DNA of 64,000 nt from Argopecten irradians (taxonomy: Eukaryota; Mollusca; Bivalvia; Pectinida; Pectinidae): positions 54,633,944-54,697,943 of the forward strand of contig NC_091134.1 of NCBI RefSeq assembly GCF_041381155.1, read 5' to 3'. Below the pieces are notes generated by a model. It was not told the DNA's origin and made no database searches. It worked only from the letters and a program-made list of their open reading frames with translations. This document shows positions 3,001 through 54,763 of this stretch, one piece after another (position 1 is the first letter of the stretch; every line of letters begins with the position of its first letter). The translations under genes and the position numbers were made by a program.

Positions 3001-5139
3001 TTGTCATAAACTGCCACATCATCGGTAATAAATAAAATCAAAATAATAATTATCTGGACAATAAAATTTTGTTGTATGCTAGAAATCAAAGGAATACCAT
3101 TGAAGTATCAACTAAAATGGTTTTATCAATCGCTACAGGACATACTGTTACCTTTTTATACGGAGAAAACATTTCTTCTAAGGAATTCGATGTAAGATTC
3201 CTGTAAGAATGCATGTCATTCGAAAAGTTTCTCCACACGAAGATAACATTTACCCTACATTGATGCCCTGATCTCAACGCATATCTCCATAGATGTTTTT
3301 GCTTTGTTTGTTTTAAAACAAAACAGCGACATGTATTGTCTTTAACTACTCAAAATGGCATTTTGTTATAAACTATAGTAATATCGAATTCATTTTGCTA
3401 AGTGTTTTCGTATTGTATGAGTCCCGCCCTGCCATTAAGAGAAGCCACCCGCGCCCACGGTCCCCCATCACATACACGCTACATAATAGCGGACCATATC
3501 CAACCATCTTATCTCTGTAAGCTCTTTCCTGTAACTAAAGTCTTATCTTACCATCGGAAATCTTTATTTGCATATATACACAGGCAAAAAAGAGCTGTTT
3601 TAGCTAAAATCTGGAGATTTATCTAGAGAACGGCTCTGAATGTTACTTTTTCTTTTCTTGAAGTGACTTTCCAGCAGAGTTGTATGGTAGGAAAGCTTTG
3701 TCTGTAGATGTCTCTAAATCACAATATCTGTAAACATTCGTAAAATTCGGGGTTTAATTTGTTAAAAGACGCTGTGCAAGAATTTTTAATCAGTATTCAG
3801 ATCACAGCTGAAGCTTTTATCTTACTCTAAACAAATTGATATCTAATTTCTTACGTACATCTGGTGTTTCCTCAAGTATGCCAATTTCTGTAAATACTTT
3901 GATATTTGTTATAAATATGTATGAATCGAATTTTTTTGTTTGTTAAACTTTGTGTACTTAATAGCATTAGTGTTATTGTGGAGCAAACAAGTGAAAAATA
4001 ATCTGGTTTCATTTGTAATGGGTTGCCACGGTGGTCACCTTTATAGTACCCCGTTTCATAATTTTTATCATAATATTATTAGATTGTGACATAAAAAGAT
4101 AATATAACAGGAGGATATGGGATATATTTGACCTATTATCTAGTTGTTATCTCCTTGGTGAAAAACAGTGAAATGAAATGAATGACTGAATAACTTATTT
4201 ATTGTTCTATTTAACGAGGTATTTGTATATTAAAAATGGTTAAATAACTACCTTCAATTATGTCTTCGATAACTTGTAATTATCTTGTAAAAATCCTCGA
4301 ATCATTTGAAAACTTTAAAAATATACATTATATTCATAACGTATAAATTATTTTGTTTCTTATTACCAACAGGAAATATCAGTCGAAATCTTTTTTTATC
4401 CTCTTCCTTTTGTAAAAGTGTTTTATGAACACAATTCGTATCTAAAGCAGTGGTTTAATTAAGACAGAGTATTTTGTTACTTATCACTTATGTAGACCAA
4501 ACTGAACTATGTTAGTGGATAGTATAATCTGTGTTATGTATCTTGTGTTTCTTAGATTAGATAAGTCACATGCCACTTAACTAGTCACCCACTTCACATT
4601 TGAGATTAACCCTAATATGATTTTTGACTTGAATAAATACATGTTGTAAAGTGTTGTTCCTGATAAAGCCGATTTATTCTTCTGGAGCACATGGTTCTGG
4701 TCATTTTGACGGTTTCTGTAAAAGTTTCCGTACTTAGCCCTTGATTTTGAGATTTTATATTGGTTGGGAAATTAATGGAATAAATGATTGAAATAATTCA
4801 CTTGACAATGTACTCAACCCTTTTTTAATTTATTTTTTAAATAATATGTAGAACAGAGCTTAAGTGAAAGATTATACAAGCTTTTAATGTAGTTTATCCG
4901 ACACAGCCTAACGAAGTTAATCCCCTTTATACATTATTCATTTCTAAACTCATGATTATCGTTCCTGGCATGGCTTCATGGGAAATGAAGTTAAGTCAAT
5001 TAAACTGAAGTATATCGCTGCTTAACATAGTGTGTCAAAAGAAATACCTATCATCTTAATTATGAATAATATAATTCAAGTCGCCTCAGTATTTAACGTC
5101 TCTTTCAATTAATTATAATTTAAAGTCATTTTATGAACG
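1..5139. other. AT-rich non-coding DNA
   Basis: No open frame here resembles a known protein or has believable splice sites plus coding bias. The sequence is strongly AT-rich with short homopolymer runs. Slightly GC-richer patches at about 1440-1640 and 3420-3560 were read in six frames and gave nothing recognisable. Confidence 0.6.
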
Positions 5140-21200: not shown

Positions 21201-21905
21201 AATATACGTATGCTTACAGAGAATTACGAACCCAGCCTGAGGTAATAAATGCTCCATATTGTAGTATGCATAATCATTACAGGAGCAATACCTCATAAAC
21301 TTTTTTTTTCATAAAAAGATACAATTCGGAAATAAATAACTATAATCTCAAAATTCTTCAACTACAACAGCTTGATAGTGTAGGATGTGCGTTCCATAAG
21401 AAAACCAATAACCTCTCCTCCGAAGTAGCTAAATAGTTTCACGATTGCTTCGTGAAAAAAGAACATATCACATTATTCACACTATTAAGGATCAGTTACT
21501 CCTTTTTCATAGGAGGATTGATGTGAACATGTGATATGAACATGTGGTTTGGAACATTTAGCCATGTTCGTTATTTTTCTATTCTAAAACTTGTTACGGA
21601 TGGAATTAGAATACGGGACTAATTCCGTTTAACGTGAATCGTAGATTTGTCAGATATGAGTGCATACTAATTTCGCGATTTTTATATCTGATCTAGTAAT
21701 CCAGCATTAGGGCAGTCGCATTTACTGGCCTTAAAAACGTAATTAATTCAATAAATCAATGTAGACTACTATTTATAAGCTGGTATGAAACATTTCGGAC
21801 GGAGTGTACAAACGATATCAGGATATACGTAAAATTTCATCACAATCGAGAACAAAATGATGTGATTAAAATAAACATATCACAAGAACTATGATCGTAA
21901 TACAA
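18221..21905. other. Non-coding DNA, nothing recognised
   Basis: AT-rich sequence without supportable genes or RNAs. Confidence 0.5.
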
Positions 21906-22849
21906 GTAGTAATGATATAATGGTGCGACCAAGGGAATAAAAATATAAGGTAGTAATGATATAGTGGTGCGACCAAGGGAATAAAAGGTAGTAATGATAA
22001 GTGGTGTGACCAAGGGAATAAAAGGTAGTAATGATAAGTGGTGCGACCAAGGGAATAAAAGGTAGTAATGATATAGTGATGCGACCAAGGGAATACAAAT
22101 ATACGGTAGTAATGATATAGTGGTGCGACCAAGGGAATAAAAATATAAGGTAGTAATGATATAGTGATGCGACCAAGGGAATACAAATATAAGGTAGTAA
22201 TGATATAATGGTGCGACCAAGGGAATACAAATATAAGGTAGTAATGATATAGTGATGCGACCAAGGGAATACAAATATAAGGTAGTAATGATATAATGGT
22301 GCGACCAAGGGAATACAAATATAAGGTAGTAATGATATAGTGGTGCGACCAAGGGTATAAAAGGTAGTAATGATAAGTGGTGCAACCAAGGGAATAAAAG
22401 GTAGTAATGATAAGTGGTGCGACCAAGAGAATAAACGGTAGTAATGATAAGTGGTGCGACCAAGGGAATAAAAGGTAGCAATGAAATAGTGGTACGACCA
22501 AGGGGATAAAAGGTACAATGTAGAAATGATAAGTGGTGCGACCAAGGGCATAAAAGGTAGTAATGATAAGTGGTGCGACCAAGGGAATAAAAATATAAGG
22601 TGGTTATGATATAGTGATACGACCAAGGGAATAAAAATATAAGGTAGTAATGATATAGTGGTACGACCAAGGGAATAAAAATATAAGGTAGTAATGATAT
22701 AGTGGTGCGACCAAGGGAATAAACATAAAAGGTACTATTGATATAATGGTGCGACCAAGGGAATAAAAGGTAGTATGATATAGTGGTGCGACCAAGGGAA
22801 TAAAAGGTAGTAATGATATAATGGTGCGACCAAGGGAATAAAAATATAA
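21906..22849. repeat. Minisatellite of 23 units (37- and 44-bp types)
   Basis: I count 23 head-to-tail units. Each has the near-invariant core GCGACCAAGGGAATA and a variable remainder starting GTAGTAATGAT. Two unit types occur: a 37-bp form ending ATAAAAG and a 44-bp form ending CAAATATAAG. They sit in blocks, with long units at about 22080-22340 flanked by short ones. Within the long block, units carrying ATAGTGATGCG alternate with units carrying ATAATGGTGCG, giving an 88-bp higher-order period. The unit lacks stop codons in any minus-strand frame, so three overlapping frames stay open there by composition alone. Confidence 0.95.
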
Positions 22850-38174: not shown

Positions 38175-38832
38175 GGGATCAAAGGGAAGGCTTGTAATAA
38201 CATGGAAGTAAATTTTATTACATTATCTTGTGTTATCGAACACAAGGTGCAATAAGTGTTATATATTTAATGTGTTGAATTTACGTAGACAAAAAAGGCA
38301 TCTTTAAAGAAAACATTTTAAGATATAGATATACTAACACTACCTGTGTCTAAGATTGAAATTAATTCGTTTAAGTACTGTTTTGTATTAATAGTCAATG
38401 TGTCTTGTAACATTGCAGACATATATAAAAATACAATGGAAGAATATAATTAAGGAAGTTGGCTAAAATGTTAGTACCCTGTCAATTCTTTAAGTTGTTT
38501 TCTTTTTCAATAGCAGATATATACTGACAAAATGATCAAGCTTGTTGTATATAGCAGTTTAAGTGTATATTAACTATGTCGCTACAGCAAAATTCTTCAC
38601 AAATTCTTCACATAGAACATGGTGTGCACAAAATGCAAAACGGGACCAAAAGGAGCATACACAAATATATATCCTTTAGCCAATTAAAGTTAATGCATGT
38701 ATTTATCATTCATTTAGGTTTTTAACAGTAAGTTTTGTATATTGGCAAACTGTGTTCTGTAGTTTGATTTCATATTTGTATAAAGTGTTTTTTTTTTCTT
38801 AAAAAAAAGACAATTGAAGTCTAAGATATTTG

Positions 38833-39226
38833 TTTTTCCCATACTTCACACGGATATCTCGCATTTGCTAGGGAAAAGATAACTCTATCTTACACAGGGG
38901 GGTGTAAGACAGCTCACACGCGCTAGACAATAACGTGACGTCATCAATACATGCGGCGTAATTGCGCCGCGCATTGTAGATGACGTCATCAATTTTGACG
39001 CATAACGACGTTCTCTGCGATAATGGCGCGATGAAAAAAATGGAAACCAAGTGGAATCTCATCATTTTTTCTACTAAGTATGGGAGAAAAAGAATCAAAC
39101 ATGGGTCTGTGAAGTAGACAGGTATATCTCAACCTTCTTAAAAGATTTTTCGGGTTGACCTGCCAAAATCTTTCACTCGGGTTGAGATATCCCTGTCCAC
39201 TTCTCAGACCCATGTAAGATTCTATT
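38833..39226. mobile_element. Hairpin-tailed element A
   Basis: Left end TTTTTCCCATACTT (38833-38846) pairs with AAGTATGGGAGAAAAA (39076-39091). Between them lie a small hairpin (CTTACAC/GTGTAAG) and a ~53-bp near-palindrome, 38936-38988, with TGACGTCA at each end. After the right end repeat comes a long hairpin with arms at about 39100-39150 and 39164-39215; GGGTCTGTGAAGTAGACAGG on the left mirrors CCTGTCCACTTCTCAGACCC on the right. The element ends AAGATTCTATTA. No protein is encoded. About 400 bp and closely similar to element B. Confidence 0.8.
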
Positions 39227-39763
39227 ATTCTCGCACCTCGGACATTGAAATCTCACATGATACCCGGTGCTAGATTTTTCTATCTCGTCCGATCTGTCTG
39301 GTACCTTTACGTGATGTTCGGCGGAATTTTACGCCATTCATGTAAGAGTTTGCGCATGTGACGTCATACTCTCGAATCGGTGACGTCACAGCCGTCGGAT
39401 AATCAATATTATTTTTTAATTATGAAAACAGTATGTACCGATTGATCATCCTTTTTCTTTAAGAATGACTGAAATCGAAACGCAGAAGAAATGGTTAATT
39501 GGCTTTAAACCAGGAGGCTCAAGACGGGATACTTTTACACTCTGAACGCGCATATAGATGGGTTTCATTATATCTTAGAGGCGCAAGAAAAAAAAATCTA
39601 TTACCTTTAGGTGATCGAGATCGGGTTATCTCAGTCTCGGGCTAAGATTTTGTAACATCTAAACCTCGGCTAACGCCTCGGTTGGGATTATGTTACAAAA
39701 TCTTAGCCCTCGACTGAGATAACCCGATCTCGATCACATGCAGGTAACGGATTTTATTATTGT
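39227..39763. mobile_element. Hairpin-tailed element D (middle of array)
   Basis: Same design as A and B but different sequence. Left end TTCTCGCACCTCGGACAT is mirrored imperfectly by ATATCTTAGAGGCGCAAGAA at about 39570-39589. It has two TGACGTCA sites (39359, 39381). It ends in a hairpin whose arms, 39611-39658 and 39690-39737, pair at about 46 of 48 positions. The loop AACCTCGGC...GCCTCGGTT pairs again within itself. It abuts A on the left and B on the right head to tail. About 540 bp, non-coding. Confidence 0.7.
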
Positions 39764-40173
39764 CCCATACTTCACAGGAATATCCTGTGGTTGCTAGGGA
39801 AAGGATATCTCTATCTTACACAGGGATGTGTAAGACAGCTCACACGCGCTAGACAACAACGTGACGTCATCAATACATGCGACGTAACTGCGGCGCGCAT
39901 TGTAGATGACGTCATCAATTTTGACGCATAATGACGTTCCTGCGATAATGGCTCGATGAAAAAGCTGGAAACCAAGTAAAAATTTCATCATTTTTTCTAC
40001 TAAGTATGGGAGAAAAAGAATTAAACACGGGTCTGTGAAGTGGACAGGGAAATATCTCAACCCTCGTGAAAGATTTTGGCCGTCAACCCTAAACCGCAGG
40101 TTGACGGCAAAATTCTTTCACGAGGGTTGAGATATACCTGTACACTTCACATACAAATGTAAGATTCTATTTA
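39764..40173. mobile_element. Hairpin-tailed element B
   Basis: A second copy of subfamily A. CCCATACTT (39764-39772) pairs with AAGTATGGG (40002-40010). TGACGTCA occurs at 39862 and 39907 at the ends of an inner palindrome. The terminal hairpin has arms 40035-40087 and 40098-40150 around the short loop CTAAACCGCA. It ends AAGATTCTATTTA. Most of its length aligns with A at high identity, so A and B are recent relatives separated by the more divergent D. Confidence 0.8.
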
Positions 40174-40709
40174 TCAACATTTCGCTGAAGGTACATTAAA
40201 TAATTGAAAACTGTGATAAGATCATGCAATAGAATTACAAAAAACCGACTTTCACCCCAATCCGGGAATTTTTATAATTATACGAAGGACCAACGCATGA
40301 TATTGCATTACCTCACTCATTTGTACACAAAGTACTAACTATAGGTAGTAAATATAAAAATCACATCCAGTTTTATCTCATCAAACAAACATTGGGTTGT
40401 CAAATGAGTTTTGTATACGAATTTATATATACATGAATGTTGTAAATCATCGATATAAAAAAATGTTAATAAGAAAGACAATAGCTACATGTATATATAG
40501 ATAACAAATTATTATGTAAAACATTCCACCCAGATGATTCTAGCTTTTCCTACATTTGTCGTTGGTTGTCTTTTATTCCCAGATTTATTGTCAAAACTAA
40601 TGGTTGTAAATTGTATATTATCCATGCACTCTTACATTGATCAAAAGAGTGCATATTGTAGCTATATTTAACTAATATGAACATATATATTTCATTTATA
40701 ACATAATGA

Positions 40710-52226: not shown

Positions 52227-53803
52227 CCAGATGAAATCGAAATTCAGCAACGAATGCTTGAACGTTCCTTTGGGAAGATCATATGAAAGAACAACCTTGC
52301 TTGCATGATTGCTTCATTCGTGCATATTTAATGTTGAGAAAATTATATTTGATTAAGCTAAACATACTTATGATACCATTTTGTTGTATATTGGAATGAA
52401 ATACCGTAAGAGAAACTCAAGCAAAAGGGAAGTTGAATGTTGATGTAATAAATATCATTTTCTTGATTTGACACGAGGAATATTTATCCATTTCATTTCC
52501 TATCTTTCGATACGGTACTACTAGTGCAGCCGAGAGTGTACGAGTATACGATGAATACCGGATGTAAATGACATAAAACATTCTATAAGGGGTCAGTGTT
52601 CTTATACAAATGACTCGGATAATATTATTGTGAATCATTTACAATATTAATCTTATTACTACTTTTTTAATATCATGAAACAATATACATTTACAAAATA
52701 AAAAAAAATATTAATATTCTTTCGTGTTATGCGTGAACAATAATAATTCATATATTAATCCAAATTGTATATCTGTAAGAAATATATGGATCTGTTAAGG
52801 AAAGAAAACAACCTACCTGATTACATTCGATACATAAACTCCTCCTTGTACAGCATACACCTTCACACTTCCTTCTGTCGCTCCTCTCAAGCTTTGGTCT
52901 GGTTGTCAGAAGATCGTACTTCAACTTGTAAATCAGGTGCCAAAGTCCCATGTCTGAGCCGGCATTGCCCTCTGCATGTTTAATCAATTCAAATCCTGAG
53001 ATTGGAATCCGATTTGTGGACGAATAAGACTAAGTTGACGGGTTCGGCATAATTCGTTTATGTTTCTTATATACACTTGCCATAACGTTTACTTTAACAC
53101 ACATAACGCATATCAAACAAGCCATTTCCCGCTGTTTTCATACCTACCTGGTATATATTAATGGATGTCGGACCCTAAATGTCTAATTCGTTAAATATTT
53201 TTATTAAAATACTTGCGACACGCAGATATTTGAATACCGCAGACATAAAACAAAGCGAAACGTCGGGAACAGTTCAAACATTAACTCGACTCATTGTTAC
53301 TTAGCAAAGCAAATAGAGTCGGGCATTCTTTTCATATCATACCAGCAAACATTCGGTATATTTATATCGTCTGTGAGATGTCATTATGAAATAAATTTTG
53401 AACAAATTATAGTGTGTTTTTAGTTGTGATTATAACAGCAGGGGTATTTTATCAAATGGCAGAAATTTAAAGCGCAAAATGTCATATAATCCACATTGTC
53501 GCTAGAGTACATCTGAATGATTACGTGATGGGCAAACATTCAGTTCGCCCTCTATAGTGGCTTGTGTGAAGTATTTCTTATGTAAATTTATATCAATATA
53601 CCATCAATCATTTTAAATATCCTTTTATATATATGTGTGTGTGCATTCGTATGTCCTCTTTGATTTCTGTTGAATTTACTAGTATAATATATACATTAAT
53701 TGTACTGCAATTTGTAGAGCGTTCCCCGTGTTACAAATACATATATGTACTAAATAATTTAATATATAACTAAGGTATGATTTTGTTATTGATATCAGAT
53801 TGC

Positions 53804-54258
53804 TTTTTCTCTTACCCCAGACAAGGATATCCACAGTTTTACCGGTGTGAGATTTGTCTATCTAACCCTAGGGTAAAGACAAGCTACACGACATCTTTGC
53901 AAGTGCCCAACAATGGTATGAAGTCACGACAACAGTATCATGGCGTTGCGATAATAGTATTATAACGTCACGACAATGAAATGACGTCACAAAGAACGCG
54001 AAGACGGCGACTCATTGAGGTCACGTCATCCTCGCTTGCATAAGTGACACGTTTATTAGAGACACAAAGTGGTGCACGGGGTAAGAGAAAAAGAATCATT
54101 CACCCTCTTTGGGGTGAGACAGGAGATCTCAACCCTCGGGATAAGATTCTTAAGCTGTGGAACACTCGGCAAACCCTCGTGTTTGACAACTTAAGAATCT
54201 AACCCCTCGGGTTGAGATTCTCCTGTCTCACCCCAATGGGGGTGAAAGATTCTATTAA
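53804..54258. mobile_element. Hairpin-tailed element C
   Basis: TTTTTCTCTTACCCC (53804-53818) and GGGGTAAGAGAAAAA (54078-54092) are a perfect 15-bp inverted pair. Between them lie a small hairpin (TAACCC/GGGTAA type) and one TGACGTCA (53982-53989). After the right repeat comes a long hairpin. Its arms run from about 54099 (TTCACCCTCTTTGGGGTGAG) to about 54245, with CTCAACCCTCGGG matched by CCTCGGGTTGAG. The loop pairs again as AACACTCGGC...CCTCGTGTT. It ends AAGATTCTATTA as in A. Same design as A, B and D, with sequence of its own. Confidence 0.8.
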
Positions 54259-54763
54259 TCCATAAGGTGCTTTTTCTTCATTTTGCGTGCGTCATTAATT
54301 TATTAAGATAACTTCGGGAAATGCATGACCATGAGATTCATTGCACCTTTCAATGTGTACATGTACATGTTTACAAGTGACCAATAACCCCAAGACGTCA
54401 TCGGCCACTCAAATTTCTATTTTGGCCACTGAAAAATCACATGACCTTCCAATCCAAGGATTGATGATCAGCCCAGCGTATTCGAAGATATCTTATTAAG
54501 CTAGACCGAGTTATCTCCCATTCTATGGGTATACGACAGATTAAACAGTGCGGCAAATTAACTTGTGGGTTTCTAAAAGTACAAAAAACTGAGGGAAAAG
54601 GTGTAAATACACGAAAGCAACCTTTCAGCCTATTGTAATAAGGAATTAATTAAAGCCTTAAAGCTCTCACCGCCAATGCGTGTTTTATTCCTTTTTTGTG
54701 TGTTATGTGTATGAGGGTGTGAGGGTGTGTGTGTATATATTTGTTTTGCTTTTTTTTTTTTTT

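Follow-up and report, generated by a model that had tools for sequence, protein, structure and literature searches.

The three elements that stand head to tail in a 64,000-nucleotide stretch of the Argopecten irradians genome (hereafter the window, referring to its full length) are best read as non-autonomous rolling-circle (HUH/Rep-type) transposons of the Helitron2 kind, inserted serially into one RGAT-N6^ATC site and ended by a hairpin terminator, a reading to which we assign a probability of about three in four. Elements A, D and B of the array, together with a separate copy, C, elsewhere in the window (Table 1), are members of non-coding families that are scattered through the genome and have termini of the Helitron2 type. 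The arms of their terminal hairpins have changed together between families, around unpaired motifs that stayed the same.

Results

Three elements in one target site

Sequence reading, repeat search and BLAST all place A, D and B in direct contact, with no spacer between them, and so bear out the initial annotation, which had described a head-to-tail array of three in which D lies between the relatives A and B. The exact ends were read manually in the window sequence against the family consensuses. By BLAST, A and B are 84% identical over their full length and 91% in ungapped blocks, and as BLAST queries on the window, A, B and D matched only each other and their own inverted arms; the D of the window falls short of its relatives by about 70 bp. 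A tail common to the elements exists in the form GATTYTATTA, but with variants, reading GATTCTATTA in A and C, GATTCTATTT in B and GATTTTATTA in D. With AGATATTTGT before A and ATCAAC after B, the entire array sits in one target, and C is flanked as AGATTGCTTT^ATCC. Elsewhere in the window (21840-22670, minus strand), three overlapping long open frames run across repeated units (SLLPYICIPLVAPLYHYYL-like) and are probably a minisatellite rather than a gene.

Table 1. Positions in the window of the four elements, their repeats, hairpins and target motifs
Feature	Position	Strand	Basis or remark
Element A, family AB	38834..39227	+	sequence vs family consensus; ends TT..GATTCTATTA
Element D, family D	39228..39759	+	sequence vs family consensus
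Element B, family AB	39760..40172	+	sequence vs family consensus; last base changed (GATTCTATTT)
Element C, family C, separate copy	53807..54257	+	sequence vs family consensus
5′ asymmetric terminal inverted repeat of A, core CCCATACTT	38838..38846	+	sequence, consensus repeat
3′ (inner) asymmetric inverted repeat of A, AAGTATGGGAGAAAAA	39076..39091	+	sequence, repeat search
5′ asymmetric terminal inverted repeat of B, core	39764..39772	+	repeat search
3′ (inner) asymmetric inverted repeat of B	40002..40017	+	repeat search
5′ asymmetric terminal inverted repeat of C, with two flanking T	53805..53818	+	sequence
3′ (inner) asymmetric inverted repeat of C	54078..54091	+	sequence
Target-motif copy/small inner hairpin of A, AGAT-N6-ATCT	38877..38890	+	sequence; family consensus
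Target-motif copy/small inner hairpin of D, AGAT-N6-ATCT	39272..39285	+	sequence; family consensus
Target-motif copy/small inner hairpin of B, GGAT-N6-ATCT	39803..39816	+	sequence; family consensus
Target-motif copy/small inner hairpin of C, AGAT-N6-ATCT	53850..53863	+	sequence; family consensus
3′ terminal hairpin of A, apex with inner CTCG pair deleted	39091..39223	+	sequence, repeat search, family fold
3′ terminal hairpin of D, two CTCG/CTCG internal loops	39593..39755	+	sequence, repeat search, family fold
3′ terminal hairpin of B	40017..40168	+	sequence, repeat search, family fold
3′ terminal hairpin of C	54092..54253	+	sequence, family fold
Left half of host target of the A-D-B array, AGAT-N6	38824..38833	+	sequence vs motif
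Right half (ATC) of host target of the A-D-B array	40173..40175	+	sequence vs motif
Left half of host target of C, AGAT-TGCTTT	53797..53806	+	right half ATCC at 54258-54261

Dispersed families

Genome searches found further copies of A/B, C and D, as the reading in the initial annotation required. We scored 40 of 2,406 first-look candidates for A, 40 of 1,115 for C and 40 of 512 for D, the unscored candidates not counting as confirmed copies; the exact 28-base start of the D relatives occurs at 130 places in the genome (reversed control, 0). Copies at least 80% identical and extending as far as the 3′ end (A, 8; B, 3; C, 33; D, 30) supplied the set for the C and D consensuses, and the family alignments hold 33 C, 30 D and 64 A/B copies, the last comprising 60 fetched copies, two earlier loci and the two window copies, with near-duplicates kept. 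Mean body divergence from consensus is 4.1% (AB), 5.3% (C) and 2.4% (D), figures that describe the copies nearest to the queries and are not genome-wide ages. Two further families, E (locus L026) and F (L011 and L020), are present in the collected loci; both rest on single copies, and the search pattern that brought them up included their inner CTCG pair. Near position 2872 of locus L067, on the plus strand, lies one more long hairpin, whose apex (CTCGACTTCGCCTTG) differs and whose stem is unrelated, possibly marking a further family.

Asymmetric termini

The AB, C and D consensuses each begin with TTCTC and end with GATTYTATTA. The paired end repeats noted earlier exist, but they are asymmetric: inverted repeats of 14–16 bp, matching at 15 of 15 (AB), 14 of 14 (C) and 15 of 16 (D) consensus positions with the T run included, have their first copy at the 5′ end and their second immediately inside the 3′ hairpin. 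Two candidate classes were set aside, namely canonical Helitrons (Helitron1), which need 5′-TC, CTRR-3′ and an A^T target where we find TTCTC..GATTYTATTA and ATC on the right, and cut-and-paste MITEs, which need symmetric inverted repeats and a target duplication that is absent here. Helitron2 also has a 5′ hairpin that takes in its 5′ repeat; here the folds predicted at the 5′ end are weak (−8 to −10 kcal/mol in AB, C and D) and leave that repeat unpaired in D, with 3 bases paired in C and partial pairing in AB.

A long hairpin with fixed loops

Folded with DNA parameters and with default parameters, the AB, C and D consensus hairpins share one predicted, very stable fold of about 155–163 nt immediately inside the 3′ end: a basal stem of about 44 nt leads to a symmetric loop in which CTCG opposes CTCG, then to a stem of 24–30 nt per arm, beyond which a further CTCG/CTCG loop precedes a short GC-capped apex. 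Each of these loops amounts to two T.C mismatches. The long pairing arms of the initial annotation are present, the repeat search giving 62 nt in A (82% complementary), 69 nt in D (88%) and, for the inner part of B, 37 nt (95%).

Across five families the CTCG motifs are intact at 19 of 20 places, the lone loss falling in the single decayed copy of E, and at 15 of 16 once the four motifs used to find E and F are left out. The apex with the right outer CTCG occurs at 2,236 genome places (reversed pattern, 1), and among the 59 right arms listed from this search about 33 are E-like and 5 belong to a G-like group. The two-loop hairpin is present in L026 (E) and L011 (F); in L020 (F) part of one arm has been lost. 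By eye, the hairpins of L020, L052 and L103 each lack one arm segment, with breakpoints near CTCG or other short repeats, which indicates that replication slips in these hairpins. The apex and right arm of family E also recur head to tail at 36-bp spacing in six of the listed places (G000:C1:5461681-5461900), a tandem array that may show how a hairpin turns into a satellite.

The stability of the predicted folds would also suit a hairpin kept as RNA, as a hairpin transcript or small-RNA precursor with the CRE-like sites as its promoter elements. The excess of such sites seen in the initial annotation is real: TGACGTCA occurs 9 times in the window against 0.75 expected, twice in each of A, B and D (6 in the array) and once in C, between the inverted repeats. 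Against this reading, an Rfam search of 38500-40500 gave no match, one-sided G-T changes are absent from the consensus stems, and in all three families whose ends are known the hairpin occupies precisely the 3′ terminus of the transposon, as a DNA terminator should; we consider the RNA reading very unlikely.

Arms that change together between families

Left arms of different families are 57.5–59% identical (shuffled arms, 42–44%), and a left arm pairs at 92–93% with its own right arm but at only 57–58% with that of another family, in a comparison whose basal segment excludes E with its decayed basal stem. In the window itself, D arms do pair with each other while differing from those of A, as first described (A right against D left arm, 70% over 30 nt). 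Over 435 pair comparisons among the consensus stems, 71 changes on both sides keep pairing, none on one side keeps it and 31 pairs are broken; these comparisons are not independent and the gapped landmark alignment inflates unchanged pairs, so that only their direction is usable, and five families are few for a claim of covariation. A MAFFT alignment of A, B, C, D and F, which misaligned the apex, was left out of the counts.

Within families the picture differs. AB has 6 changes that affect both sides of a pair where independent change predicts 6.5; the corresponding figures are 7 and 7.8 for C, and 1 and 0.3 for D. Of the 14 observed, 11 are Watson–Crick. In AB the 6 Watson–Crick doubles exceed a shuffled mean of 2.6 and were reached in 20 of 500 shuffles, whereas the observed numbers were reached in 184 of 500 shuffles for C and in all 500 for D; the number of paired cells was reached in 80 of 500 (AB), 314 of 500 (C) and 500 of 500 (D). 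The initial annotation's claim of a fold kept while both arms change therefore holds between families, and within families gives way to double changes at the independent expectation, with a weak excess in AB. That excess aside, single insertions decay freely, and pairing is kept in the lineages that keep moving.

Selection on the fold and a copying mechanism that rewrites one arm from the other had been offered as the two explanations. Arm-to-arm copying, by template switching or quasipalindrome correction, would maintain complementarity without selection, and the 71-to-0 ratio of two-sided to one-sided changes, the AB excess and the slippage seen in L020, L052 and L103 are what one might expect of it. 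Copying would, however, erase the T.C loops and perfect the arms, and we observe neither: the opposed CTCG loops persist in five families (19 of 20 motifs), and family arms are 84–96% complementary, short of perfect. Nor do within-family doubles depart from the independent expectation or paired cells in C and D rise above shuffles. We therefore reject arm rewriting as quite unlikely, with the weak AB excess left standing, and favour selection on the fold. Predicted perfect left arms, allowing at most three mismatches, match at 43 (E), 11 (F) and 11 (G) places, with no matches for reversed controls; the F pattern is ungapped and cannot match the known F copy, which has an extra base, and none of the 5 G right arms listed has a listed left arm among these matches. 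Near-complement left arms thus exist for E, F and G, but family arms are imperfect, and the scarcity of matches counts partly against the prediction.

A loose target motif

Of 127 copies, the 121 in which both ends could be identified (C, 30/33; D, 30/30; AB, 61/64) supplied the flanks, which reduced to 109 distinct sites after removal of near-duplicates and short flanks and to 94 after removal of 15 junctions. At these 94 sites GAT lies at −11 in 29 (0–6 at other left positions), ATC at +1 in 46 (0–6 elsewhere) and TT at the 5′ border in 86. As empty sites place the border TT within the element, the target consensus is RGAT-N6^ATCY, a loose motif given that GAT occurs in fewer than a third of sites and ATC in about half. 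The two halves are complementary as a consensus, but no site-by-site covariation was found; we therefore claim a motif rather than a selected hairpin, and rejected insertion into hairpins as such.

The consensuses of other elements supplied the empty sites. Among 116 of the 121 sites (near-duplicates kept), joined flanks align across the junction to an element consensus in 17; with L001 (an A-D-B junction) and L011 (a 22-bp match) set aside, 15 nested insertions are left, of which L042 and L053 may be one duplicated insertion. Thirteen of the 15 show no gap within 10 bp of the join, five align at 96–100% identity and L067 is identical at 69 of 69 positions, indicating that insertion is precise and does not duplicate the target. 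Within RGAT-N6^ATCY, most empty sites read T^A or N^A, not the TT insertion of Helentrons. By manual reading, 7 of the 15 lie in or beside the small inner hairpin, 3 in GGGAT^ATCCC near the start of AB, 4 in terminal hairpins and 1 elsewhere. RGAT-N6-ATCY itself occurs once per AB, C and D consensus, 44–48 nt from the start and within the small inner hairpin (scanned over the first 82 nt of D and up to the hairpin of C).

An element's 3′ end followed by its new right flank reads AGAT-N7^ATC, close to the same motif. Direct element–element junctions account for 15 of the 109 distinct sites, and the exact junction AAGATTCTATTATTCTC occurs 64 times genome-wide (reversed control, 0). A 3′ end that nearly rebuilds the target would explain arrays, and the end of one element probably supplies the landing site for the next, giving the array seen here.

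Candidate partner proteins

The Helitron-like N-terminal domain PF14214 has 104 matches in the genome, some of them pieces of one locus, and at L069 PIF1 helicase and Exo_endo_phos domains follow downstream, which is the Helentron layout. No autonomous copy with the ends described here was found: the 3′ flanks of 3 of the 104 Rep matches (L069–L071) hold no CTCG hairpin, and when the listed element places, up to 40 or 100 per search, were compared by eye with the Rep matches, no pair lay closer than about 15 kb. At 3690-3733, L071 carries a 44-bp palindrome (95%) that immediately follows a Helentron-like open frame and is a candidate for the short terminator of an autonomous Helentron.

A different enzyme, such as a Y1 HUH transposase (IS200/605-like or Replitron-like), might instead move these elements, their likeness to Helitron2 being convergent. 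The self-regenerating target here (an AGAT..^ATC flank like the element's own 3′ end) is reminiscent of IS200/605 site logic, and the three Rep flanks read tie no Helentron-type partner to these ends. Yet Helentron-type proteins are abundant in the genome, and asymmetric repeats with the inner 3′ copy beside the hairpin are features of Helitron2 in the portion of its description consulted (PMC3627910), so that we regard another enzyme as unlikely.

Discussion

That no named family has this design, as first stated, was too strong, since asymmetric repeats with a 3′ hairpin are the published Helitron2 design; here and below, likenesses and differences refer to the consulted parts of the papers cited. 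Bao and Jurka (2013, PMC3627910) describe Helitron2 as having asymmetric inverted repeats of 8–15 bp, the 3′ one placed directly before the 3′ hairpin, and a T at the 5′ end, and they already record compensatory changes in two related elements. The elements described here share the terminal 5′ copy, the 3′ copy next to the hairpin and the 5′ T; they differ in their hairpin of about 155–163 nt with two CTCG/CTCG loops, in the RGAT-N6^ATCY target, in a doubtful 5′ hairpin, in the lack of an autonomous copy among the flanks read and, owing to the long hairpin, in a 3′ repeat that does not lie 20–30 bp from the end.

With HINE/DINE-1 elements, the non-autonomous Helentrons, they share subterminal inverted repeats, a 3′ palindrome, a T-rich left border and no target duplication (PMC4067079), and HINE is known from molluscs as Cg_HINE of oyster (PMC7492417). 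Published Helentrons, however, insert at TT, and the 3′ palindromes of mite HINE measure 5–10 bp (PMC4067079), whereas here the hairpin is far longer, insertion is at T^A in a longer motif and the family consensuses have no central satellite array. Because the TT target was not seen and no partner was found, we do not file these families as Helentrons; that they work like a Helitron2-type element stands. FoHeli, the Helitron2-like element of Fusarium, likewise has asymmetric repeats and inserts between TNAT and A, with one insertion 2 bp from another copy and evidence for circles, but FoHeli1/2 end in ATTTT, and the hairpins are short and transposase-encoding copies known (PMC5148889). In Helraiser/Helibat (Helitron1) the 3′ hairpin is likewise a terminator: swapping the stem kept about 90% of activity, and changing the loop resembled deleting the hairpin; its 5′-TC, CTRR-3′, A^T target, 19-bp palindrome and lack of terminal inverted repeats set it apart (PMC4778049). 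No long, loop-punctuated Helitron hairpin was found in the literature searched, which lay outside subscription papers and Repbase, and as far as that literature extends, such a terminator and the three-fold use of a target motif are new.

We propose that a Rep-type protein, probably with its helicase, mobilises the elements by rolling-circle transposition, and that the 3′ hairpin most likely serves as the signal for replication termination and cleavage. The stem would need only to pair, letting stem sequences drift together between source lineages, while the four unpaired CTCG motifs at two fixed places may be what the protein reads; by the parallel with Helraiser, free stems with fixed unpaired motifs would be the expected trace of a shape-reading protein. 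Cleavage at the 3′ end may require both the element's AGATTCTATTA and an ATC supplied by the target, and each insertion, nearly rebuilding the target at its own 3′ end, would let the next element land head to tail. A further step, which we hold tentatively and at somewhat less than even odds, is a loop code used by a superfamily of rolling-circle elements, in which two opposed CTCG/CTCG loops at fixed distances in a free stem mean terminator and the same protein reads AGAT-N6-ATC in the target, in the 5′ copy and at the element's own 3′ end. If so, every insertion would manufacture the next landing site.

What is understood of the way rolling-circle transposons recognise their stopping point comes, to our knowledge, mainly from a single reconstructed Helitron. 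The five natural families of this genome, their stems differing by about 42% while pairing and unpaired motifs stay, parallel the experiment in which its stem was swapped and its loop changed, and the recognition target of the terminator's reader thereby becomes directly testable. The target grammar, in turn, offers an explanation of the head-to-tail and nested arrays that is simple and can be checked.
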